A stretch of DNA of 64,000 nucleotides from an uncultured Eubacteriales bacterium (GTDB lineage Bacteria; Bacillota; Clostridia; Oscillospirales; Acutalibacteraceae): NCBI GenBank assembly GCA_949292775.1, contig CASFBL010000005.1, positions 1 to 64,000 of the forward strand. The letters are read 5' to 3'. Position 1 is the stretch's first letter. The number at the start of each line of letters is the position of its first letter. A program made the position numbers and the translations under genes. Positions 9,722 to 20,422 of this stretch are shown here, one piece after another. Under the pieces are notes generated by a model. That model was not told where the DNA came from. It made no database searches and saw only the letters and a program-made list of their open reading frames with translations.

Positions 9722-11476
9722 ATGGCAAAAATTGTTGTCGGCGCAGGGAGCTGCGGTATTGCAGCCGGTGCGCAGAAAGTGTATGACGCATTGCAAACCG
9801 AACTTGCCGGAAAAAACGATGTGCAGTTGACCATTACCGGCTGTAACGGCATGTGCTTTTTAGAGCCGATTGTCGATTTGTATGATGACCAAAACAATCT
9901 CACAAGACTGGTCCGCGTGAAAGCACAGGACGCCGAAGCGATTGTAAAAGCGGCGGTCAGTGACGACCTTTCGGCGGTGCGCGACCTTGTCATTTCCGAC
10001 GAAGACGCCCAGTTTTTAGAAAAACAGACCCGCATTGCGCTTCGCCATTGCGGTGTAATCAATCCGGAAGAAATCGACGATTACGAAAATACCGACGGCT
10101 ATAAAGCCATTCGTAAGGCGCTTTCTCAGATGACGCCCGAACAGGTGATTGAAGAAATCAAAATATCCGGTCTTGCCGGTCGAGGCGGCGCAGGTTTCCC
10201 GACTTGGTTCAAATGGAATGCGGCGCGCGCTTCCGAGGGCGAGGAAAAATATTTGATTTGTAACGCGGACGAGGGCGACCCCGGCGCGTTTATGGACCGT
10301 GCCGTTATTGAGGGCGACCCGCATTCTCTTATCGAGGGCATGCTCATCGGCGCTTATGCCATAGGCGCGAAAGAAGCCGTGGTTTATGTCCGCGCGGAAT
10401 ATCCGCTTGCGATTAAACGCTTGGAAAAGGCAATCAAACAGGCTGAAGAAAAAGGCTATCTTGGCGAAAACATATTCGGCAGCAGCTTTTCCTGCAAAAT
10501 GCGGATTAAGGCGGGCGCAGGCGCGTTTGTCTGCGGCGAGGAAACCGCGCTGATTGAATCGTTAGAGGGCAGCCGCGGCATGCCGCGCTTAAAACCCCCG
10601 TTCCCCGCGCAGGCAGGCTATTGGCACAAGCCTTCTAATATCAACAATGTTGAAACCTTTGCCAATGTGGCATGGATTTTGAATAACGGCGGTGCGGCGT
10701 TTGCCGCAATGGGCACCGAAGGCAGCAAGGGCACCAAGGTGTTTGCGCTGACCGGTAAGGTGCGCCGTGGCGGGCTTGTCGAAATCCCGATGGGCAAAAC
10801 CCTGCGCGATGTCATTTTTGATATCGGCGGTGGTATCCGTGACGGCAAAGCATTTAAAGCCGTTCAGATGGGCGGTCCGTCCGGCGGTTGTATCCCGGCA
10901 GATTTGCTCGATACCGTCATTGACTATAAAGCGCTCGGCGCGACAGGCGCGATTATGGGCTCCGGCGGTATGGTCGTTATGGACGAGGGCACCTGCATGG
11001 TCGGCATGGCGAAGTTCTTTTTGGATTTCACCGCAAAAGAGTCCTGCGGCAAATGCGTTCACTGCCGCCTTGGCACAAAGCGTATGCTCGAGGTGCTCAC
11101 CCGCATTGTAGAGGGTGAGGGGAAATCCGGCGATATTGAGCTTTTGGAAGAGCTTTGCTATTCTGTCAAAGACGGTGCGCTTTGCGGACTCGGTCAAACA
11201 GCGCCCAACCCGGTGCTTACAACCCTTCGCTATTTCCGTGATGAGTTTGAAGCCCACATTAACGAAAAACAGTGTCCGGCAGGGGAATGCACGGCGCTGA
11301 TTACCTATTCTATCAATCCTGAAAAATGCGTCGGCTGCACCAAATGCGCGCGCAACTGCCCGGTACACGCAATTTCCGGCAGCGTCAAAGCGGTGCACAG
11401 CATTGACCCGTCCGTTTGCATCAAATGCGGCAAATGTGCGGAAAACTGCAACTTCGGCGCAGTGGAGGTGCACTAA
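9722..11476 (+). CDS. NuoF-like NADH-binding FMN/Fe-S subunit
   Basis: A 584-residue flavoprotein of the HydB/HndC type. Domains in order: a thioredoxin-like segment (about 1-90) that starts GAGSCGIAAGAQK; the NADH/FMN core with GRGGAGFPTWFKW, CNADEGDPGAFMDR and GAGAFVCGEETALIES; the [4Fe-4S] site ESCGKCVHCRLGTKRM with the distal Cys in DGALCGLGQ; and a C-terminal 2x[4Fe-4S] ferredoxin (CVGCTKCARNCPVHA, CIKCGKCAENCNFGA). These sites would pass electrons between NAD(P)H and ferredoxin. Stop and next start overlap as TAATG. Family members belong to bifurcating hydrogenases, but no H-cluster subunit is encoded here, so the electron acceptor is open. Confidence 0.92.
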   Translation: MAKIVVGAGSCGIAAGAQKVYDALQTELAGKNDVQLTITGCNGMCFLEPIVDLYDDQNNLTRLVRVKAQDAEAIVKAAVSDDLSAVRDLVISDEDAQFLEKQTRIALRHCGVINPEEIDDYENTDGYKAIRKALSQMTPEQVIEEIKISGLAGRGGAGFPTWFKWNAARASEGEEKYLICNADEGDPGAFMDRAVIEGDPHSLIEGMLIGAYAIGAKEAVVYVRAEYPLAIKRLEKAIKQAEEKGYLGENIFGSSFSCKMRIKAGAGAFVCGEETALIESLEGSRGMPRLKPPFPAQAGYWHKPSNINNVETFANVAWILNNGGAAFAAMGTEGSKGTKVFALTGKVRRGGLVEIPMGKTLRDVIFDIGGGIRDGKAFKAVQMGGPSGGCIPADLLDTVIDYKALGATGAIMGSGGMVVMDEGTCMVGMAKFFLDFTAKESCGKCVHCRLGTKRMLEVLTRIVEGEGKSGDIELLEELCYSVKDGALCGLGQTAPNPVLTTLRYFRDEFEAHINEKQCPAGECTALITYSINPEKCVGCTKCARNCPVHAISGSVKAVHSIDPSVCIKCGKCAENCNFGAVEVH

Positions 11477-14301
11477 TGAGCTTGATTCATATTACTATAG
11501 ATGGGCATAACCTTGCTGTGGAGGAGGGGACAACGCTCCTTGTCGCGGCAACCGAGAACGGGCTGAAAATCCCGAATCTCTGCTATGACGGCCGCGTCGA
11601 GCTGTACGGCGCCTGCGGGCTTTGCGTGGTGGAAGTCGAGGGTACGCCGAAGCTTCTGCGTGCCTGCTCGACCAAGGCGACGGACGGCATGGTCGTCCAC
11701 ACCGACACCGAGCGTGTTGTCCGCGCGCGTAAAGTGGCGCTCGAGCTTTTGCTGTCCGACCATGACGGCGACTGCAAAGCACCCTGCACCAAAGCGTGCC
11801 CGGCACATACCGACTGCCAGGGCTATGTCGCTTTGATTGCCAACGGCGAATACAACGAAGCCACACGCGTGATTAAAGAAAAAATTCCGATTCCTGCGTC
11901 TATCGGGCGTGTTTGCCCGCATCCGTGCGAATCCAAATGCCGCCGCCAGTTTGTTGACGAGCCGGTTTCCATTGCCGCGCTCAAGGGCTTTGCAGCCGAT
12001 ATGGATATGGCGAGCGTGACCCCTTATGTGCCGCCTGTTGAGCCGGATACCGGCAAGACCGTTGCCGTTGTAGGCGGCGGTCCCGGCGGACTTACCGTGG
12101 CCTATTTCCTGCGCCGTCAGGGGCACAGCGTTACCGTGTTTGATGCTATGCCGAAAATGGGCGGTATGCTTCGCTACGGTATTCCCGAATATCGTCTGCC
12201 GAAAGCCATTTTAGACCGCGAAATTGAGCAGATTGCAGCTATCGGCGTAAAGCTTTGCAACAATGTGAAAATCGGTAAAGATAAAACACTTGAAGATTTG
12301 CGGAAAGACTATGACGCAGTCGTGCTTGCCGCAGGCGCATGGAGCAGCAGCAAAATGCGTGTGCCGGGTGAAGATATCCCCGGAGTTTTGGGCGGCATTA
12401 ATTTCCTGCGTGCGGTTGCACTCGGAAAAGCGCCTGCAATCGGCAATGCCGTTGCCGTTGTAGGCGGCGGCAACACCGCCATGGATGCCTGCCGTACTGC
12501 AGTTCGTTTGGGCGCAGAAAATGTGTCGGTCATCTATCGACGCACACGCGACGAAATGCCCGCTGAAGAAGTTGAAATTGTCGAGTCTGAGGAAGAGGGC
12601 GTGCAGTATCGCTTCTTAACTTCGCCGATTGAATTTACAGAAGAAAACGGCAAGGTGCGCGCGGTGCTTCAGAAAATGCGCCTCGGTGCGCCGGATGCAA
12701 GCGGCCGCCGCCGTCCCGAACCGATTGAGGGCGAGACCGAAACCCTGCTTTTGGATACCGTGATTATGGCAATCGGCCAGCACCCGGACCTGACCGGCTT
12801 TGAAAGTGTGGAAACAACGGCGCGTCATACCGTTGCCGCCGATGAGGAGACTTTCCGTACTTCGTTGGACGGCGTGTTCGCTGTGGGCGATATGACCAAC
12901 AAGGGCGCTTCTATCGCGATTGCGGCGATTGGTGAAGCACAGAAAGCGGCTGTGATTGTGGATCGTTACCTTGCCGGCGAAGCGGCACGCTATAAAAAGC
13001 CGTTTTATGTGGAACGCGAACTGCCCGTGGAATTTTTCTCGAAATTCCCGAAAGCGCCGCGCGCCAAAATGCCGCAGCGCCCGGCAGAAGAGAGAAAGCA
13101 TGACTTCGGTGAGGTTGCGCTCGGCTTCTCCGAAGAGGTTGCCCAAAAGGAAGCCATGCGTTGCCTTGAATGCGGCTGCCATGACTATTATGAATGCAAA
13201 CTGATTGAATACGCCAACCAGTATGATGTTAAACCCGAACGCTTCGACGGCGAAAAGCATCACAGAAACGAAGAAGATGTCAATTCGCTGATTTCCCGCA
13301 ACACCGATAAATGTATTCTCTGCGGACTGTGCGTGCGCGTTTGCGAAGAAGCGATGGGTAAAACCAATTTGGGACTTATCGGGCGCGGCTTTGACACCAT
13401 CGTCAGCCCCGAGTTCTCTTTGCCGCTGGAAGAAAGCAGTTGTATGTTCTGCGGCCAGTGCGTCACCGTCTGCCCGACCGGCGCACTTCGTGAAAAACAA
13501 CCGGTTAGAAAGCGTCTCACGCTTCCCGAAAACAGCGTGCGGTCTGTCTGCACCGGCTGTGCGGCACTTTGCAAAACCGATGTTCGCTTTATCGGCAAGG
13601 CCGTTACGCGCGTGCTGCCTGAGGGCGAAAAAGGACTTCTTTGCAAAGCCGGTCGCTTCGGTATTTTTGAAGCTGCCGAAGAAAAACAGCCGATTTCTGA
13701 TGAGAAACTTGCCGCAATTCGCGCAAAGCTTTCCGAGTTCGGCGACAGCGCAGCGGTCGTGTTCGGTCCGACGGCGTCTTTGGAGGAAATGGCGTTTGCC
13801 AAAGCGTATTTCAAATCCGTTTACGCAGATGTCACTGAAAAATCTGCCGCTTTTGCGGGCGTCAAGCTTTTAGAAATCCCGTCCGTCAAAGATTACCGCG
13901 GCGAAAAAGCGGTCGTTTTGGTTGACTGTAAACTGCCCGCCGGTTTTGCGCCTGCATACACCGTTGCACTTTCTCACGCCGAAGCGCAAAATGTCAGTGC
14001 CCAGATATTCACCGCACCGTTTACAGCACAGGGCGGCACTTATTTGAAAGCTGAAGGCTCTGTGCGCACGGCGCAGGCGGCAATCAAGTCCGCACTTCCG
14101 ACCAAGCTTTCCGCGCTCGGGTTGCTTTGCGGACAACCTGCGGATTTGGAAGAAATGACACAGGAACTGAAAAAGACCTATTCAGCACTTGCAAATCCCA
14201 AGGATTCTGCTATAATCGAAACAGAGCTTTTGCGAATCGGCGGCGGTTATTTCCAAAACCGCACAAGCGAGGAAATCGCGCGGTTCTGCGACAAGTTCTA
14301 A
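11476..14301 (+). CDS. NuoG-type / GltD-type fused flavin and iron-sulfur oxidoreductase
   Basis: A 941-residue fusion. Visible order: a [2Fe-2S] plant-type ferredoxin domain (residues about 1-80, LCYDGRVELYGACGLC); a cysteine-rich segment (DCKAPCTKACPAHTDC) leading to a glutamate-synthase-small-subunit-like module with FAD site VAVVGGGPGGLTVAYFL (about 196), NAD(P) site VAVVGGGNTAMDA (about 325) and AVGDMTNKGASIAI (about 471); then ferredoxin motifs CILCGLCVRVCEE (about 613) and CMFCGQCVTVCPTGAL (about 656), and a molybdopterin-oxidoreductase-like Fe4S4 motif beginning CTGCAALCK (about 692). The last 200 residues look like a decayed NuoG/formate-dehydrogenase-like part without a recognisable metal site. 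The start at 11476 overlaps the previous stop; the longer frame from 11416 overlaps coding sequence. Probably the catalytic or scaffold subunit of an NAD(P)H/ferredoxin complex. Confidence 0.85.
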   Translation: MSLIHITIDGHNLAVEEGTTLLVAATENGLKIPNLCYDGRVELYGACGLCVVEVEGTPKLLRACSTKATDGMVVHTDTERVVRARKVALELLLSDHDGDCKAPCTKACPAHTDCQGYVALIANGEYNEATRVIKEKIPIPASIGRVCPHPCESKCRRQFVDEPVSIAALKGFAADMDMASVTPYVPPVEPDTGKTVAVVGGGPGGLTVAYFLRRQGHSVTVFDAMPKMGGMLRYGIPEYRLPKAILDREIEQIAAIGVKLCNNVKIGKDKTLEDLRKDYDAVVLAAGAWSSSKMRVPGEDIPGVLGGINFLRAVALGKAPAIGNAVAVVGGGNTAMDACRTAVRLGAENVSVIYRRTRDEMPAEEVEIVESEEEGVQYRFLTSPIEFTEENGKVRAVLQKMRLGAPDASGRRRPEPIEGETETLLLDTVIMAIGQHPDLTGFESVETTARHTVAADEETFRTSLDGVFAVGDMTNKGASIAIAAIGEAQKAAVIVDRYLAGEAARYKKPFYVERELPVEFFSKFPKAPRAKMPQRPAEERKHDFGEVALGFSEEVAQKEAMRCLECGCHDYYECKLIEYANQYDVKPERFDGEKHHRNEEDVNSLISRNTDKCILCGLCVRVCEEAMGKTNLGLIGRGFDTIVSPEFSLPLEESSCMFCGQCVTVCPTGALREKQPVRKRLTLPENSVRSVCTGCAALCKTDVRFIGKAVTRVLPEGEKGLLCKAGRFGIFEAAEEKQPISDEKLAAIRAKLSEFGDSAAVVFGPTASLEEMAFAKAYFKSVYADVTEKSAAFAGVKLLEIPSVKDYRGEKAVVLVDCKLPAGFAPAYTVALSHAEAQNVSAQIFTAPFTAQGGTYLKAEGSVRTAQAAIKSALPTKLSALGLLCGQPADLEEMTQELKKTYSALANPKDSAIIETELLRIGGGYFQNRTSEEIARFCDKF
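14189..14216 (+). promoter_or_regulatory. promoter of the B12-riboswitch operon, inside the upstream gene
   Basis: TTGCAA (14189-14194), 16-base spacer, and TATAAT (14211-14216) preceded by TGC, an extended -10. It lies about 85 bases before the end of the upstream coding region. A transcript would start near 14223, ahead of the cobalamin aptamer. Confidence 0.7.
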
Positions 14302-14309
14302 TCATATTT

Positions 14310-14500
14310 CCGTTTACGGGTTTTTCGGCGTACCGCGCCGGAAATGAAAAGGGAACACGGTGCAAATCCGTGACAGCCCCCGCTACTGTAATGTCTACGC
14401 TCTGCCATTTTGCCACTGGGTCACCCCGGGAAGGCGGCAGCGGCGGTTTACGGCAAAGCCAGGAGACCTGCCCGCAAATGATGCAAAAATTCTTTCGGTG
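14310..14500 (+). promoter_or_regulatory. cobalamin (B12) riboswitch aptamer
   Basis: Conserved blocks of the adenosylcobalamin-type aptamer are readable in order: AAAAGGGAA at about 14347, GGTGCAAATCC at 14359-14369, CAGCCCCCGCTACTGTAA around 14374-14391, GCCACTGG around 14412, CCCGGGAAGGCG around 14425, and AGCCAGGAGACCTGCC at about 14457-14472. Ends are approximate. It occupies most of the 367-base gap before the alpha-barrel gene. With the terminator at 14561-14591 it should lower expression of the downstream capture and ECF genes when cobalamin is plentiful. Confidence 0.95.
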
Positions 14501-14560
14501 GGAGAGAAGTATGCAGTGCAAAACTGGGGTAGCAAACTACCTTTCTTTTGTTGTGCATCG

Positions 14561-14591
14561 GGCGAAGCTCTCCAAAGCTTCGCCTTTTTTT
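14561..14591 (+). terminator. riboswitch-associated intrinsic terminator
   Basis: GGCGAAGCT (14561-14569), six-base loop, AGCTTCGCC (14576-14584), then seven T. It lies between the aptamer and the first gene, the position of an expression platform. GGAGAG at 14501-14506 can pair with CTCTCC at 14568-14573, which enters the left arm and could form a competing structure. Confidence 0.85.
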
Positions 14592-14668
14592 GCCGGAAAG
14601 GAGGCATTTTCAAAAAACAGAACAATCCGGATTTTCCGGCAAATCAACAATTGAAAGGAATTTGAGTT

Positions 14669-15847
14669 ATGAAAAAAACAGCTTTAACCATACTTTCTGT
14701 TCTGCTCGTTTTGAGCCTTTTGACCGTTTCTGCATTCGCAGCAGAAAATAACAGTGTTGCTTCTGAAAAGCAAGGGCTTTGTGCCTGGCTGCAAAACGAT
14801 GACAACACCGGCTTTGATTATTCCGAAACTTCTTTTGCCGACGGCACAGTTGATTGGTCCGCGTTCGCGTTAGCAAGAAGTTTTGCAGAAGTGCCCGAAG
14901 AATATCCGGCTTATGTAAACGCTGTTGTGAAAAACACATTCTCGGGGCTTTATCCGTCCGACCTTGCCCGCTTTACTTTAAGCGCCACGGCTTGCGGGCT
15001 TGACCCGCGTTCTGTGGGCGGTCACGATTTGCTTGCGGCGCTTTCCTCGGTCGATTACAGTGCGCAGACCTATTTAAGCAGTCTGATTTTCCCGCTTATA
15101 GCAATGAATTTCCGCTCGGATTTCGGCTTTCCGGAAGAAGTAAAAGCAGATGTTGTCAAAGCCATTTTAGCAGCACAGCTGACTGACGGCGGCTTCCCGT
15201 ACAGCACGGAAGACAGCGGTTACGGCATTACTGCCGACACCGACACCACCTCTATGGCGATTCAGGCGCTGGCGCCTTATTATAAGACCGACGACGCTGT
15301 GCGCGCGGCGGTAGATAAAGCGCTCGACTACCTGTTGACCCAACAGTTTGACGACGGCTCTTTCGGCTATACAGCATGGTCTTCGCCGAGCGGTGAATCG
15401 ACCGCGCAGGTGATTATTGCGCTGTGCGCACTGGGAATTGACCCGACAGACGCACGCTTTGTCAAAAACGGCAAAACGCCCGTGGACGCACTGAAAACCT
15501 ATATCGGTGAAAACGGCGGTGCGTGGTATGTGGATTACCAAAGCGGCCAAAAGGTTGAAAATCCGCTGTCCACCTATCAGGTTTTAATGGGTATGGACGC
15601 TTACGAACGCTTTACCGAGGGTGACTTCACCATCTACGCATATGATGAAAAGCCGCAGACACCTGAAACGACAGAACCCACAACGACACCGGAAACAACC
15701 GCACCGCAGACCACCGAGCCTGCGACTGAGAACAAAGAAAATGTTGAAATTCCGAAAACCGGTGCGGCAACCGTTCCTGTTGGTGCCGCTGTCCTCTTGG
15801 TTGGTGCGGCAGCGGCTGTCTGCTTTGTAAAAAAAGATGAACGCTAA
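14669..15847 (+). CDS. wall-anchored alpha/alpha-barrel protein, transcobalamin alpha-domain-like
   Basis: 392 residues: signal peptide (1-25, cut near SAFA-AE), an all-helical domain (about 30-315) with prenyltransferase/squalene-cyclase type repeats such as QLTDGGFPYSTED followed by DTTSMAIQALAPYY, and QQFDDGSFGYTAWSS followed by STAQVIIALCALG; then a Thr/Pro/Glu linker (about 325-360), IPKTG, a hydrophobic helix and KKDER. The tail is a sortase-type sorting signal. Animal transcobalamin and intrinsic factor have the same alpha6/alpha6 barrel with DTxxMAxLAL repeats. First gene after a B12 riboswitch and overlapping a DUF4430 lipoprotein by 11 bases, so a corrinoid-binding role is inferred. 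A true terpene cyclase is unlikely because the protein is exported. RBS GAAAGGAA at 14654. Confidence 0.8.
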   Translation: MKKTALTILSVLLVLSLLTVSAFAAENNSVASEKQGLCAWLQNDDNTGFDYSETSFADGTVDWSAFALARSFAEVPEEYPAYVNAVVKNTFSGLYPSDLARFTLSATACGLDPRSVGGHDLLAALSSVDYSAQTYLSSLIFPLIAMNFRSDFGFPEEVKADVVKAILAAQLTDGGFPYSTEDSGYGITADTDTTSMAIQALAPYYKTDDAVRAAVDKALDYLLTQQFDDGSFGYTAWSSPSGESTAQVIIALCALGIDPTDARFVKNGKTPVDALKTYIGENGGAWYVDYQSGQKVENPLSTYQVLMGMDAYERFTEGDFTIYAYDEKPQTPETTEPTTTPETTAPQTTEPATENKENVEIPKTGAATVPVGAAVLLVGAAAAVCFVKKDER

Positions 15848-16550
15848 AAAACTTCTCATTTGCTTTTTGACCCTTTGCCTGCTTCTTTGCGCCTGCGGCA
15901 AAACAGATTTGGCGCAAGGGGAGACACCGGGCAGTGAACCCCAAACAGAGCAAACCACCGGCGTGGGCGAGACTTCGTCCGCGCCGGCTTCTCAGCCGTC
16001 TAACGGAACGACCTGCACGCAAACGCCGTCCGGAAGCGCGCAGAAAGCGCAGGCGGGAACGGGGCAGGGGAATAACAGCGGCGGTGCAGGCACGGCCGGT
16101 TCGAAAGCACCCGGGAATACCTCCGGCGCGCGGAATCCGAATTCCCCGGCTGCCACTGCCGAACAGCCCCAAAAGCAAAACACAATTTCCCTGTCAATCA
16201 CCTGCAAAAATGCAATCCATAACGGCATTTTAGAAGACCCCAATTACGCGGGTGTCCTGCCGGAAAACGGTGTGATTTTTTCCTCGTCCGCTGTTCAAAT
16301 CGAGTCGGGCGATACGGTCATGCAGGTGGTCAAGTCTACGCTCAAGTCCAACAAAATTGTTTATCAAATCGCCTCCGACGGTTATATCAAAAGCATTGCA
16401 GGTCTCGGCGAATTCGACTGCGGCGCACAAAGCGGCTGGCTTTATAAGGTCAACGGCGTGCAGCCCAGCATTTCCACGCGGTATTATACCCTGCAGCCGG
16501 GCGACCAGGTCGAGCTTATCTATACCTGCAAACAGGGGGATGTTTCATGA
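15837..16550 (+). CDS. DUF4430 lipoprotein, transcobalamin beta-domain-like
   Basis: 237 residues. Lipoprotein signal with lipobox LCAC (Cys near 19), a long Ser/Thr/Gly/Gln-rich spacer (about 22-118), then a DUF4430 domain (about 120-237) containing SGDTVMQVVKSTL and the hallmark SGWLYKVNGVQPSISTRYY. DUF4430 (PF14478) is the family of the C-terminal beta domain of transcobalamin and intrinsic factor, which closes over cobalamin bound to the alpha barrel. Start ATG 15837 lies inside the end of the previous gene, and the stop overlaps EcfT as ATGA. The spacer would let the domain reach into the wall toward the anchored alpha-barrel partner. Function is inferred from family and context. Confidence 0.82.
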   Translation: MNAKKLLICFLTLCLLLCACGKTDLAQGETPGSEPQTEQTTGVGETSSAPASQPSNGTTCTQTPSGSAQKAQAGTGQGNNSGGAGTAGSKAPGNTSGARNPNSPAATAEQPQKQNTISLSITCKNAIHNGILEDPNYAGVLPENGVIFSSSAVQIESGDTVMQVVKSTLKSNKIVYQIASDGYIKSIAGLGEFDCGAQSGWLYKVNGVQPSISTRYYTLQPGDQVELIYTCKQGDVS

Positions 16551-17413
16551 AAACGGACCGTTCCTTTTTTTACCGTCTGCAAACCGCCACGCTGCTCTTT
16601 CTGCTTTTGGCGGTTTCGCTTATCACCATGCTGCGGGTGCATCCCGTGGTTTCCTTGCTTTCTGCATGTTCGGGTGCGCTTTCTCTTTTGCTGTATGGCG
16701 GCAAAAGGGAACTGCGCGCCCTTTTGCGCTTTTGCCTGCCGGTTGGGCTGTTGCTGGTGCTTTTTAATTTGGTGTTTAACCGCAACGGTGTAACCGTGCT
16801 TTTTTATATCGGCGATGCGGCGGTCACGCTTGAATCTGTTTTGTATGCGCTGTTTACAGGTTTTGCCTTTTGCGGCGCGGTGCTTTGGTTTTCGTTCTTC
16901 TGCGCGTTTTTAGACAGTGACCGCATCTATCGCTTGTTTGCACGGTTTTCAAAAGGGCTTGCCGTTATCTTTTCTCTGTCCATGGCGCTTGTGCCGAAAA
17001 TCCTGCAAAAATATGAAGAAATTAAGCTCGAAGAACGCGCAAGCGGCGATAAAAAGCATCGTTTTACGCAAAATATCTTACAGCTTTCTGCCCTGTTTTC
17101 GTGGGTGCTTGAGGATTCGTTCGAAACGGCGGTGTCCATGAAAGCCCGCGGCGCGCTGTTAAAAGGAAAACGGCAAAAAGTGCGGCAAAAGATATCTTTC
17201 GCGGATATACTGCTTTGGATTTTGTGTGTTGCCTGTGTGGCGCTTATGTTCTTTTCGCCGCCGATGCTTGCGGAAATTTACCCGAAATTCCGGCAAGAAG
17301 CCTATTTGCAAAGCAGCGTTTCCTATTTGCCGCTGTTTTTATTGTATTTTTCCCCGGTCATTTTTAAAATTTGGGAGGTGACAAAGTGGAAGTTTATCGC
17401 GCGAAAGATTTAA
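16547..17413 (+). CDS. ecfT: ECF transporter transmembrane subunit EcfT
   Basis: 288-residue membrane protein with five to six hydrophobic segments, the T component that couples ATP hydrolysis to the substrate-binding S component. The cytoplasmic coupling helices are seen: EERASGDKK (about 160), which departs from the usual Ala-Arg-Gly, and SMKARGALLKGKRQ (about 196), which has it. Start ATG overlaps the DUF4430 stop; the end overlaps the ATPase start by 28 bases. Being in the B12 operon suggests a dedicated (group I) ECF module rather than the shared housekeeping module. Confidence 0.85.
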   Translation: MKTDRSFFYRLQTATLLFLLLAVSLITMLRVHPVVSLLSACSGALSLLLYGGKRELRALLRFCLPVGLLLVLFNLVFNRNGVTVLFYIGDAAVTLESVLYALFTGFAFCGAVLWFSFFCAFLDSDRIYRLFARFSKGLAVIFSLSMALVPKILQKYEEIKLEERASGDKKHRFTQNILQLSALFSWVLEDSFETAVSMKARGALLKGKRQKVRQKISFADILLWILCVACVALMFFSPPMLAEIYPKFRQEAYLQSSVSYLPLFLLYFSPVIFKIWEVTKWKFIARKI

Positions 17414-19023
17414 AATTTACCTATGCAGGCGCCAAAGCGCCGGCGCTGCACAATATAAATTTTTCTGTCGATGAAGGCGACTTCGTTTTGCTGTACGGCG
17501 CTTCGGGAAGCGGAAAGACCACGCTTTTGCGGCTTTTAAAACAGGAGATTGCCCCAGCTGGTCACCTTTTAGGGGAATTGTCTTATATGGGCGCACCCTT
17601 GCGGGAGCTGCCTTATGAACAGTCTGTTGCTGAAATCGGTTATACCGCACAAAATCCCGACACCCAGCAGGTTTCGGAATTTGTCTGCAACGAACTGCGG
17701 TTCCTATTGGAGAACCTCGGCGTTTCTGAACAGAAAATCAGCCTGCGCGTGGCAGAAACCGTCACCTTTTTCGGAATAGAAGACTTGTTTTCCCGGCGCA
17801 TCAGCACGCTTTCCGGCGGCGAAAAACAGATTGTCAATTTACAGGCGGTTTTTGTGTCCAATCCGCGCGTGCTGCTGCTTGACGAGCCGCTGTCTCAGCT
17901 CGACCCGTTCTCGTGCGGGCGGTTTGTTGAGCTGCTCGGCCGTATCAGCCGAGAGCTCGGCGTGACGGTGTTGGTCGCCGAACACAATATCCAGCCGTTT
18001 TTGCCGCTCGTGACAAAAGTTCTGCATTTGGAAAACGGTGCTTGCACGGTGTTTGACAGTGCCGACCGATTTTTAACGGCGTTTCCGTCCGCCTCTCCCG
18101 TGACGGCGATTCCGGCGGCGCTGGGACTTTCTGTTAGCACACCTGTCCCGAAAACGGTGCCCGCGTGCCGGAATCTGTTGAAGACGCTCTCGAAGCTTCC
18201 TGTCCCTGCGGCGCATGCGGCTTTGCCGAAGCAGGAAACCGCGCTTCGGCTTTCTGATGTGTGTTTTCGATATGACCGCGACCAAAAAGATGTGTTAAAC
18301 GGTGTGTCACTTGACTTGCGGCGCGGCGAAATCTTTTCGGTTGTCGGTGCAAACGGCTCAGGAAAAACGACCCTTTTGAAAGTCCTTTCGGGCGTTTGCA
18401 AGCCGTATTCCGGCAAACGGAAAGCGGCAGATGCGCTTCGTGTAGCAAGCGTGCCGCAAAATCCGCAGACCTGTTTTTCGTTTGATACGGTGCTCGAGGT
18501 GCTCCAGTCTGCGGCACAGCCGCCTTCTCCGAAAGCCCTTTTTCATGCGCTCAATTCCGCAGTGCCTGCCGAAAACATGCAGCCGCTCGAAAGTGTGAAA
18601 GCTGTTGCACAGCGGCTCGGCCTTTCCGATGTGCTTTTGGCGAATCCGTTTGATTTGAGCAGCGGTCAGCAGCAGCGTGTCGCCATTGCCCGCGCGCTTT
18701 TGCAGTCGCCGGATGTTTTGCTGTTTGACGAAGCTACAAAAGGACTGGATGATGCTCGTAAACAAACGCTTGCCGTGCTTTTGGAAGAATTAAAAGTGCA
18801 GGGAAAAGCTGTTTTGCTTGTGACGCACGATTTGGATTTTGCCGCCGAGGTCTCCGACCGCTGTGCGCTCCTGTTTGACGGCAAGCTTGCGCTTACAGCA
18901 GACAACCGGGCGTTTTTTACCCAAAGCACAGTCTACACCTCCACTGTGGCGCGTGCATTTTCCTTTGTTCCGGCAGAGACGCGTCCGGTTTCGATGCGGG
19001 AGGTGCAAAATGCCGAAGTCTAA
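17386..19023 (+). CDS. fused ECF ATPase (EcfA1-EcfA2 in one chain)
   Basis: 545 residues with two complete ABC domains. First: Walker A GASGSGKTT (about 36-44), signature LSGGEKQ, Walker B VLLLDEPLSQLD. Second: Walker A GANGSGKTT (about 325), signature LSSGQQQR (the second Gly of LSGGQ is Ser-shifted), Walker B VLLFDEATKGLDD and the switch His in LVTHDLD. GTG 17386 is chosen as start because GGGAGGTG lies 8-15 bases before it; the longer frame from TTG 17371 would cover that site. It powers the neighbouring T and S components. The fused form is common in clostridial substrate-specific ECF loci. Confidence 0.88.
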   Translation: MEVYRAKDLKFTYAGAKAPALHNINFSVDEGDFVLLYGASGSGKTTLLRLLKQEIAPAGHLLGELSYMGAPLRELPYEQSVAEIGYTAQNPDTQQVSEFVCNELRFLLENLGVSEQKISLRVAETVTFFGIEDLFSRRISTLSGGEKQIVNLQAVFVSNPRVLLLDEPLSQLDPFSCGRFVELLGRISRELGVTVLVAEHNIQPFLPLVTKVLHLENGACTVFDSADRFLTAFPSASPVTAIPAALGLSVSTPVPKTVPACRNLLKTLSKLPVPAAHAALPKQETALRLSDVCFRYDRDQKDVLNGVSLDLRRGEIFSVVGANGSGKTTLLKVLSGVCKPYSGKRKAADALRVASVPQNPQTCFSFDTVLEVLQSAAQPPSPKALFHALNSAVPAENMQPLESVKAVAQRLGLSDVLLANPFDLSSGQQQRVAIARALLQSPDVLLFDEATKGLDDARKQTLAVLLEELKVQGKAVLLVTHDLDFAAEVSDRCALLFDGKLALTADNRAFFTQSTVYTSTVARAFSFVPAETRPVSMREVQNAEV

Positions 19024-19558
19024 ACGCTTTTTCACACTCACACGCATGGTGTCTGTTTCCGTGATGACGGCGTTTGCCGTGTTCGGGCGCATTGCCTTTG
19101 CCGCCATTCCGAATTTTAAACCGACTACCGCTGTGGTTATTTTGTCAGGGATGGCGTTCGGTCCCGCAACCGGATTTTTGACCGGCGCGCTTTCTGCGCT
19201 GCTCTCCAATTTCTATTTCGGGCAGGGACTTTGGACGCCTGTGCAAATGCTTGCCTGGGGACTTATCGGCTTTTTGTCCGGTTTGTTAACAAACTGTAAA
19301 TTCATAAACAAACTCTGGAAAATCGTGGCTTTCGGCTTGTTCTCGGCTTTGCTTTATGGTATTATGTTAGACACATGGCATGTGCTTTTTTTCGTAAAAA
19401 CCTATACGATAGAAGCCTTGTTTGCCACCGCCGGTGCTTCGGCTCTGTTTAATTTTTCACACGCGCTTTCTACGGTGTTGTTCCTGTCCTTTTTGGCAAT
19501 GCCGTTTTTGCGCCGGGCGAAGCGCATCCGGCTGAAATATATGGATTTGGAAGGATAG
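19010..19558 (+). CDS. ECF transporter S component, probable cobalamin specificity
   Basis: 182-residue membrane protein with about six helices. The stretch NFKPTTAVVILSGMAFGP followed by GFLTGALSALLSNFYFGQG and AWGLIGFLSGLL is typical of ECF S components (cobalamin/CbrT-like and related groups). ATG 19010 overlaps the ATPase by 14 bases, with GGGAGG at 18998; the frame from 18839 upstream is out-of-frame ATPase sequence. The B12 riboswitch and the transcobalamin-like genes make cobalamin or a corrinoid precursor the likely substrate; sequence alone does not prove this. Confidence 0.78.
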   Translation: MPKSKRFFTLTRMVSVSVMTAFAVFGRIAFAAIPNFKPTTAVVILSGMAFGPATGFLTGALSALLSNFYFGQGLWTPVQMLAWGLIGFLSGLLTNCKFINKLWKIVAFGLFSALLYGIMLDTWHVLFFVKTYTIEALFATAGASALFNFSHALSTVLFLSFLAMPFLRRAKRIRLKYMDLEG

Positions 19559-19561
19559 AGT

Positions 19562-20422
19562 ATGCAAATCTCTGAACAGTTAAAGGCAAAAGTGCAAACG
19601 ACCTCATTTGAGGTGTTCCCGCCGAAAAACGACGCGGCTTACGCGCCCGTGGAAGCGGCGGTGGACCGTCTTTCCGAATTCCGCCCGGATTTCATCAGCG
19701 TTACTTATGGCGCAGGCGGCGGCACCTCCGTAAATACGCCGAAAATTGCGTCTCACATTCAAAATGATTTACATATTCCCGCGCTTGCGCACCTGACCTG
19801 CGCATCCTCTACCAAAGCGCAGATTCGCGAAATTGTGCTGGATTTGAAAGCCCGCGGCATTGAAAATATTTTGGCGCTGCGCGGCGATTTGCCCGAAAAC
19901 TATCAGCCGGACGATGACCACTACCGTTACGCAGGCGAGCTTATCACCGCCATTCGTGAAATCGGCGGCTTTTCGGTCGGCGCGGCGTGCTACCCTGAGG
20001 GGCATGTTGAGTGCGAAAGCGCAGAAGCGGATTTGCGCCACTTAAAAGAAAAGGTAGACTGCGGTGCGGATTTCTTGATTACGCAAATGTTTTTTGATAA
20101 CAGCGCGCTTTACAGCTTTTTATACCGCGCTCTGAAAATCGGCATCGATGTCCCGGTCATTGCGGGCATTATGCCTGTCATTAACCAAAAGCAGATTCGT
20201 CGGTCCTGCGCGCTGTCCGGCACAACGCTGCCGTCGCGCTTTAAGGCCATGATCGATAAATTCTATGACAATCCGGAAGCGCTCCAGCAGGCAGGCATCG
20301 CCTATGCGACCGAGCAGATCATCGACCTTATCTCCAACGGCGTCAACGGGATTCATATTTACACCATGAACCGCCCCGAGGTCGCCGGCGCTATCATGTC
20401 GAATCTTTCGTCCATTTTGTAA
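19562..20422 (+). CDS. metF: 5,10-methylenetetrahydrofolate reductase
   Basis: 286-residue TIM-barrel flavoprotein that makes 5-methyl-THF, the methyl donor of B12-dependent methionine synthase or the methyl branch of acetogenesis. Family motifs: TSFEVFPPKND near the N terminus, VTYGAGGGTS, HLTCASSTKAQI, ALRGDLP, and DFLITQMFFDN. Start ATG is three bases after the S-component stop, with GGAAGG just before it, so it is part of the riboswitch-controlled operon. Coupling with B12 uptake fits the B12 need of MetH. Clostridial MetF often needs MetV; no MetV partner is seen here. Confidence 0.93.
   Translation: MQISEQLKAKVQTTSFEVFPPKNDAAYAPVEAAVDRLSEFRPDFISVTYGAGGGTSVNTPKIASHIQNDLHIPALAHLTCASSTKAQIREIVLDLKARGIENILALRGDLPENYQPDDDHYRYAGELITAIREIGGFSVGAACYPEGHVECESAEADLRHLKEKVDCGADFLITQMFFDNSALYSFLYRALKIGIDVPVIAGIMPVINQKQIRRSCALSGTTLPSRFKAMIDKFYDNPEALQQAGIAYATEQIIDLISNGVNGIHIYTMNRPEVAGAIMSNLSSIL

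Follow-up and report, generated by a model that had tools for sequence, protein, structure and literature searches.

How vitamin B12 passes through the Gram-positive cell wall is poorly known, and the locus described here raises the question of whether the two halves of a transcobalamin-like carrier, made as separate proteins, could catch a corrinoid outside the cell and hand it to a transporter. The window, by which we mean the whole stretch of 64,000 nucleotides analyzed, corresponds to positions 1 to 64,000 (forward strand) of contig CASFBL010000005.1 in assembly GCA_949292775.1, from an uncultured Eubacteriales bacterium (Bacillota; Clostridia; Oscillospirales; Acutalibacteraceae). It contains, all on the forward strand, a cobalamin riboswitch followed by gene A, gene B, an EcfT-like gene, a fused EcfA-EcfA (EcfAA) gene and an S component (Table 1). 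Successive genes overlap by 11 (A/B), 4 (B/EcfT-like), 28 (EcfT-like/EcfAA) and 14 (EcfAA/S) bases, bearing out the tight overlaps under one riboswitch claimed in a preliminary description of this DNA. As for the parts it had named, the riboswitch, the IPKTG signal, DUF4430, the ABC domains and the S component were all recovered, while B has a noncanonical lipobox and no convincing family match backs the EcfT call. We consider it likely that the operon serves riboswitch-controlled capture and import of corrinoids, with A and B acting as a two-halved, transcobalamin-like clamp.

Table 1. Features of the capture operon and its flanks, in window coordinates.
Feature	Coordinates	Strand	Basis or detail
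Promoter-like site	14189..14216	+	TTGCAA, 16 nt, TATAAT; TG ahead of second hexamer; within 3' end of upstream gene
Cobalamin riboswitch aptamer	14301..14489	+	RF00174, 126.5 bits, E 2.2e-31, gathering score 31.5
Intrinsic terminator	14560..14592	+	10-pair stem, then T run
Gene A, exported alpha6/alpha6 barrel protein, sortase-type tail, 392 aa	14669..15847	+	
IPKTG sorting motif of A	15749..15763	+	residues 361-365
Gene B, membrane-tethered DUF4430 protein, 237 aa	15837..16550	+	PF14478 9.1e-16; N terminus; spacer; profile relation to transcobalamin beta domain
DUF4430 domain of B (transcobalamin C-terminal, SLBB-type beta-grasp)	16308..16526	+	PF14478, residues 158-230
EcfT-like membrane protein, 288 aa	16547..17413	+	position, conserved order
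Fused EcfA-EcfA ATPase, 545 aa, GTG start	17386..19023	+	two ABC_tran stretches, PF00005 9.6e-52
CbrT-family S component (by sequence), 182 aa	19010..19558	+	PF07155 9.3e-11, PF12822 4.2e-8, 6fnp_A
metF (methylenetetrahydrofolate reductase)	19562..20422	+	PF02219 3.2e-84; TIGR00676 above cut-off

The aptamer was the sole Rfam match above gathering score within the window, and the only RF00174 match listed genome-wide under stricter filters. The leader downstream from it (14490 to 14600) has a folding energy of -45.3 kcal/mol (z = -4.86), and the terminator that it contains is likely the expression platform of the riboswitch; low B12 would then permit transcription past it. The promoter-like site has 10 of 12 consensus matches, a weak signal, as the region holds 6 such sites where its shuffled versions average 3.9. 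Neither CbiC nor CobS was detected in the host genome, which has B12-binding domains in three places; by eye, two of the frames concerned are MetH-like and corrinoid-protein-like, the latter adjoining methyltransferase-like frames. Judging from its genome, the host appears to be without B12 synthesis of its own and to rely on external corrinoids.

Since the EcfT-like protein has no convincing transporter-family match in Pfam or NCBIfam, its assignment relies on its place, its membrane character and Ala-Arg-Gly motifs that we take to point to EcfT; a profile grown from it found homologues in 37 of 61 loci. The best NCBIfam matches of the fused ATPase were TIGR04520/04521, under their cut-offs. 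An S component clearly belonging to another vitamin would not fit the preliminary description, but by sequence the window protein falls in the CbrT family: its single match in the PDB was 6fnp_A (1.5e-7), and a profile of the family retrieved this chain at 6.4e-31, the next being 4hzu_S at 0.016. 6FNP is the ECF-CbrT of Lactobacillus delbrueckii, described as a transporter of cobalamin and cobinamide (PMC5997447). This breadth of substrate, together with the fact that the riboswitch senses the product pool and not the form imported, would suit a system devoted mainly to some corrinoid other than cobalamin (cobinamide, or a cobamide whose lower base differs). We regard that as improbable: with no detectable CobS in the genome, the usual way of completing cobinamide would be closed, which makes whole cobamides the likelier substrate. 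The metF gene starts 3 bases past the S component and is probably co-transcribed with it. As a fixed part of the operon it was discarded, given that outside the window only 2 metF frames appeared in 141 loci at 1e-10, both on the opposite strand; many of these loci stop soon after S, so that linkage may have been missed in some of them.

Protein A is composed of a signal peptide, the barrel domain, IPKTG, a hydrophobic stretch and a KKDER tail. The host genome has four sortase matches, so that an LPXTG-like motif, a hydrophobic stretch, a positive tail and a genomic sortase are all present and anchoring to the wall is predicted. The predicted fold is the alpha6/alpha6 barrel of the transcobalamin alpha domain. 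The PF01122 search suggested in the preliminary description came out negative: the family was listed for none of 51 A proteins at E values up to 10 (HMMER, subject to its filters), against 381 bits for human transcobalamin. PDB sequence searches with the window A and with an A-B fusion profile retrieved toroids, terpene cyclases among them, and in no case transcobalamin. Protein A as an extracellular enzyme of terpene-cyclase or sugar-epimerase fold, acting on a corrinoid or a surface sugar and leaving transport to B, EcfT, EcfAA and S, is nevertheless very hard to credit, as A is exported, B12-regulated and predicted to be wall anchored, and in relatives it is fused to the beta domain. Of 97 A rows, 85 retain the motif DxDx[TS]x[MIV], yet the full DxDD acid motif carried by cyclases was not seen in the window A sequence.

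For B the corresponding search was positive, with 58.5 bits to PF14478 against 25.0 bits for human transcobalamin with the same model, and the genome search placed the only DUF4430 of the host at the same spot. Profile comparison also related B to the beta domain of the transcobalamin family (P 9.8e-10); PDB sequence searches with the window B alone and with a B profile gave nothing relevant. The N terminus (...LLLCAC) is a noncanonical lipobox (LCAC, with Cys at -2), classed as TM/signal by a simple pattern scan, and the spacer comprises 94 residues rich in G, T, A, Q, S and P.

Profile-profile comparison of A with the transcobalamin alpha domain gave no signal with narrow alignments (P 0.07 and 0.12; P 0.85 for the S family as negative control). 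With broad alignments the score against the transcobalamin-family alpha domain was 41.1 (P 4.9e-5), whereas 150 column shuffles reached at most 21.0 and the reversed template scored 18.4; for random subsets of A, P ranged from 2.1e-5 to 6.0e-3, and A scored 21.7 against transcobalamin alone and 25.1 against intrinsic factor plus haptocorrin alone. However, 11 A-like barrels located away from B (out of the 16 among 64 A places that lack it) scored 36.3 (61 columns), inside the range of 19.4 to 42.0 given by ten 11-row draws of A. Specific homology was therefore dropped and, because barrels without B score alike, A is claimed only as a member of the barrel superfamily of the transcobalamin alpha domain.

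The window A and B are two overlapping genes in different reading frames, not the single polypeptide of the transcobalamin family, and in 70 of the 80 contig loci kept, a frame with A alone precedes one with B alone. Natural A-B fusions exist in two types, one with a TM hairpin and the other compact (L102 and L130; 441 and 463 residues), with a short linker and the alpha-beta order of transcobalamin. When the L102 model was compared to the PDB with Foldseek, each of the best 13 matches was a transcobalamin, an intrinsic factor or a haptocorrin (5.3e-10 to 6.7e-7, with 440 to 479 columns aligned), and its beta domain matched 5no0 with a TMt of 0.73 and rmsd of 2.7. On the A tree (7 of 101 rows dropped from the final version: L033, L058, L059, L073, L075 and two of L164), the split or fused state changes 4 times, at least 3 of them forced by starred branches, in a direction that the tree does not give. 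Distances of A and B are correlated over 67 pairs (r = 0.85; partial correlation given EcfT, 0.56).

The suggested survey of the pair after B12 riboswitches covered 147 genomes. Among the 150 DUF4430 places listed (further ones exist), 65 follow a cobalamin riboswitch of their own strand at no more than 10 kb, while the control (other strand or downstream) gave 1, an association that exceeds chance. A riboswitch lay within 10 kb upstream of A in 31 of 64 places (opposite strand, 0). B lay no more than 3 kb from A, on its strand, in 48 of 64 places (opposite strand, 0); for the strongest 50 A places the figure is 45. Sequences were fetched for 60 of 131 DUF4430 clusters (40 with and 20 without a listed riboswitch), and an Rfam scan of 28 of the 80 contig loci found RF00174 upstream on the same strand in 15, on the other strand in 1 and not at all in 12. 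Similarly, B was located within 10 kb upstream of S in 80 of 116 S places (opposite strand, 0), and S was near B in 76 of the 147 genomes.

The same data could be read as corrinoid import with no single clamp, B binding the ligand and delivering it to CbrT while A is a separate wall receptor, store or spacer. B stands directly ahead of S (within 300 nt) in 41 of 116 places, the 7 such loci fetched contain no A, other loci have the order B-T-E-S without A, and the anchors of A and B are separate. Moreover, in animal carriers either domain, alpha or beta, can bind cobalamin when isolated, and the beta domain alone is said to serve some organisms (PMC11107200). We still judge this reading unlikely, as fusion or separation of A and B has happened at least 3 times, the compact forms keep the transcobalamin domain order and A seldom occurs without B. 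The split capture system first proposed is partly supported, by the separate halves, their pairing, the fusions and the CbrT relationship; A lies outside PF01122.

Under the clamp model, the A barrel would be exported and joined to the wall by sortase, and the beta-grasp domain of B would be held to the membrane by its flexible spacer. The corrinoid would be clamped between the mouth of the barrel and B, which may carry or release it to the CbrT-like S component; EcfT and the fused EcfAA would power its entry, and inside the cell it would serve MetH, which MetF supplies, along with other proteins that use corrinoids. A broader possibility, put forward tentatively, is that Clostridia commonly catch B12 by such a two-piece clamp closed by the corrinoid, the split form, both types of fusion and the minimal form (beta half plus CbrT) being variants of one machine that also gave rise to animal transcobalamin. 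The wall barrel (anchored by sortase or S-layer homology) and the membrane half might then meet only over a corrinoid, the ligand bridging wall and membrane before going to CbrT. This is plausible because the association of the animal domains depends on cobalamin (PMC11107200).

Like transcobalamin, intrinsic factor and haptocorrin (PF01122 plus PF14478), the system combines an alpha6/alpha6 barrel with a DUF4430 beta domain. Unlike in these soluble animal carriers, its halves are two separately anchored proteins, a wall part and a membrane part with predicted corrinoid binding, and A is not PF01122 by sequence. Capture by surface lipoproteins is also found in Bacteroides, BtuG being among those that bind B12. 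BtuH (PMC8941943) and others (PMC6143338) are described as catching B12 at the surface ahead of the transporter, in a Gram-negative system as opposed to the Gram-positive one of the window; the likeness is by description. The ECF-CbrT of L. delbrueckii (PMC5997447) shares the S sequence family and the ECF ATPase module, but it is described as using the ECF module of FolT2, whereas the window operon has a dedicated EcfT, a fused EcfAA and extracellular capture proteins. A survey of micronutrient genes in gut genomes presents transport of B12 and its precursors as an open problem in numerous genomes (PMC6593275). No account of the split A/B form was found among the open-licence papers searched or in relevant sections of PMC3766115 and PMC11477304.

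Burroughs et al. 2007 (PMC1796856) described transcobalamin-like SLBB proteins of low-GC Gram-positives and proposed B12 scavenging for them. Shared with the window system are the secreted beta-grasp domain, the alpha/alpha toroid fusion, Gram-positive anchors, CbiO/CbiQ-like operon genes and hosts mostly without key enzymes of B12 synthesis. The words riboswitch, split, adjacent and permease do not occur in its running text. Its passages on these proteins present toroid and beta domain as fused, possibly together with a second SLBB protein, whereas in the window the two are separate genes; those passages do not mention a toroid encoded by itself, CbrT, a connection to a riboswitch, a division between wall and membrane, or a minimal form of B and S alone. 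The basic concept goes back to this 2007 prediction, and the two-piece wall-and-membrane form is a variant of it, now open to testing. If the clamp model is true, the extracellular capture parts of CbrT importers would be named across much of one bacterial order, the compact fusions would be bacterial proteins with the architecture of human transcobalamin, and the 2007 proposal that animal transcobalamin came from Gram-positives would become directly testable, both biochemically and structurally.

The window carries a single cobalamin riboswitch, followed by an intrinsic terminator, at the head of a packed plus-strand gene run from A to metF. Successive genes from A to S overlap by 11 (A/B), 4 (B/EcfT-like), 28 (EcfT-like/EcfAA) and 14 (EcfAA/S) bases, and metF begins 3 bases after the end of S. 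The architecture claimed in the preliminary description (riboswitch, exported barrel protein A, DUF4430 protein B, EcfT-like protein, fused ATPase EcfAA, S component) was correct. Its exported barrel protein with an IPKTG signal was also borne out: besides its barrel domain, A carries a signal peptide and the tail IPKTG...KKDER. For B, the DUF4430 domain (PF14478, 58.5 bits) and the long spacer (94 residues) held, while the lipoprotein-like N terminus has an unusual lipobox. Given its distance of 3 bases from S, metF may couple methyl-folate supply to B12 import in the window; two other metF matches were found in the fetched loci, both on the other strand. A promoter-like site for the operon sits inside the end of the second upstream oxidoreductase-like gene.

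Features of the operon in the window and of the genes upstream
Feature	Position	Strand	Remark
Upstream genes	9722-14301		read by eye as similar to subunits of the NADH-binding flavoprotein and iron-sulphur oxidoreductase kinds
Cobalamin riboswitch	14301-14489	+	RF00174, 126.5 bits
Intrinsic terminator	14560-14592	+	after riboswitch
Gene A	14669-15847	+	
Gene B	15837-16550	+	
EcfT-like gene	16547-17413	+	
Fused EcfAA gene	17386-19023	+	
S component gene	19010-19558	+	
metF	19562-20422	+	

The S component fits B12, as had been proposed, since it falls in the family of ECF-CbrT: the only PDB sequence that it matched was 6fnp_A (1.5e-7), and a profile of 21 relatives gave 6.4e-31 for the same entry, with the next match at 0.016. 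The available text on 6FNP (PMC5997447) describes it as ECF-CbrT, with demonstrated transport of cobalamin and cobinamide. The ATPase of the operon is a double ABC protein, and in 46/80 and 10/61 loci (L098, L108, L154 and others) S shares one long frame with it, giving an ATPase and S component in one chain. The EcfT-like protein had no convincing match in Pfam or NCBIfam. Its putative identity rests on its place, its membrane character, Ala-Arg-Gly motifs and a conserved gene order (37 of 61 loci contain a homologue).

The host genome (98.6% complete) contains three places with a B12-binding domain, one within a MetH-like frame and another within a corrinoid-protein-like frame adjoining methyltransferase-like frames (both read by eye). 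There was no match to CbiC or CobS, and the host therefore probably lives on imported complete cobamides. DUF4430, A, the CbrT-like S and the listed RF00174 match each occur once, beside four sortase matches and one FecCD permease, and the operon is the sole import system found in this genome under a cobalamin riboswitch.

The pairing recurs in the order. In one sample of 147 genomes, DUF4430 was present in 108, RF00174 in 91, A in 55 and the S family in 110 (among the matches listed). At 48 of 64 A places (45 of the 50 strongest), B shares the strand and is no more than 3 kb away, and S follows within 12 kb downstream at 34. Seen from S, B stands upstream within 10 kb at 80 of 116 places and within 300 nt at 41, and a riboswitch within 12 kb at 50. 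A riboswitch lies within 10 kb upstream of 31 of the 64 A places; for all of these pairings the opposite-strand counts were 0. At the 150 listed DUF4430 places, a same-strand riboswitch lay within 10 kb upstream in 65 (control, 1). Some S-family matches bear one to three in-frame stops (G020:C40, G059:C58, G087:C60, G042:C51, G024:C11, G088:C8), being either decaying copies or matches that overrun the true end.

A scan of a genome-contig collection confirmed 555 of 593 stretches among the matches listed, and 80 loci were kept, including Sporobacter termitidis, Pseudoflavonifractor phocaeensis, Cellulosilyticum ruminicola and Paenibacillus qinlingensis. An A-only frame precedes a B-only frame in 70 of them, often ahead of EcfT and EcfAA. 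Among 28 of the 80 scanned with Rfam, RF00174 was upstream on the same strand in 15, on the other strand in 1 and absent in 12; upstream of one of these 12, L102, an AdoCbl riboswitch was matched below threshold (28.7 bits against 50).

Five arrangements were found. A and B may be split, as in the window; fused with two transmembrane stretches between them (A1 alignment; L045, L047, L050, L052, L072, L074, L078, L081, L082, L084), a hairpin in the membrane that should leave both domains outside; or compactly fused through a short linker (L102, 441 aa; L130, 463 aa; L060, 482 aa). B may also stand ahead of the ECF genes without A or, in the minimal form, as a short protein directly before S, the fetched stretch containing neither A nor EcfT. 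Many split relatives have an A that ends in a tail of about 230 residues; in the one examined (L108) this tail contains three S-layer homology stretches, where A of the window has its sortase signal. Upstream of A-B, six loci (L039, L100, L120, L122, L125, L159) have very long frames, about 1,650 to 2,300 aa, that contain DUF4430, barrel domains or both, five barrel stretches sharing one frame in L159.

In the likeliest mechanism, low B12 would open the riboswitch, A would go into the wall and B to the membrane, a corrinoid would be held between them as in transcobalamin, and B would hand it to CbrT for ATP-driven import; we infer corrinoid binding and all later steps. The available text of a paper on rat transcobalamin (PMC11107200) reports that association of the alpha and beta domains depends on cobalamin, a precedent for a clamp in two pieces that closes on its ligand. 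It also reports that isolated animal domains can bind cobalamin and that some organisms have the beta domain alone, a precedent for B doing the work by itself. The minimal loci favour this alternative (7/61 by the 300-nt rule, most just behind a riboswitch; L061, L064, L065, L066, L067, L069, L076, and L063). Their DUF4430 proteins measure 128-252 aa as called, with a hydrophobic N terminus in most, and their S is CbrT-like. Against it, A and B have been joined or split repeatedly: the A tree (94 rows) shows 4 changes between split and fused, and starred branches force at least 3 of these. The observation in the preliminary description is confirmed, and its interpretation partly supported. The hairpin fusions form one group (100/95); A of the window groups with 13 of them in a starred set (17 rows, 99/93), a position that is unsure because of its long branch. 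Over 67 split pairs, A distances correlate with B distances at 0.85; once EcfT is allowed for, the value is 0.56.

As human transcobalamin matches PF14478 (334-406) and the profiles agree (P 9.8e-10 against the transcobalamin-family beta domain), B is homologous to the animal beta domain. The A profile scored 41.1 against the alpha domain (shuffles at most 21.0), but A-like barrels away from B reached 36.3. Since that signal, real against shuffles, is not specific and PF01122 matched 0/51 A proteins, A is best placed in the barrel superfamily to which the alpha domain also belongs, and no more; of the two HMMs proposed for checking the pair, only PF14478 gave a match, in B. A-related barrel proteins also occur away from DUF4430 at 11 places (L179-L189; 54-90 bits, A model).

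The available text of Burroughs et al. 2007 (PMC1796856) describes a transcobalamin-like beta-grasp domain in Gram-positives, fused to an alpha/alpha toroid, in operons containing CbiO- and CbiQ-like genes, in hosts usually without key B12 synthesis enzymes, and proposes that the domain serves to scavenge B12 and was transferred to animals. The literature searched yielded no later account of a split form with adjacent A and B genes, separate anchors, CbrT and a riboswitch. We read the operon as a variant of that system; compared with the form described there, its new element would be that two neighbouring genes encode the halves, each with an anchor of its own, and that they are linked to CbrT and a B12 riboswitch.
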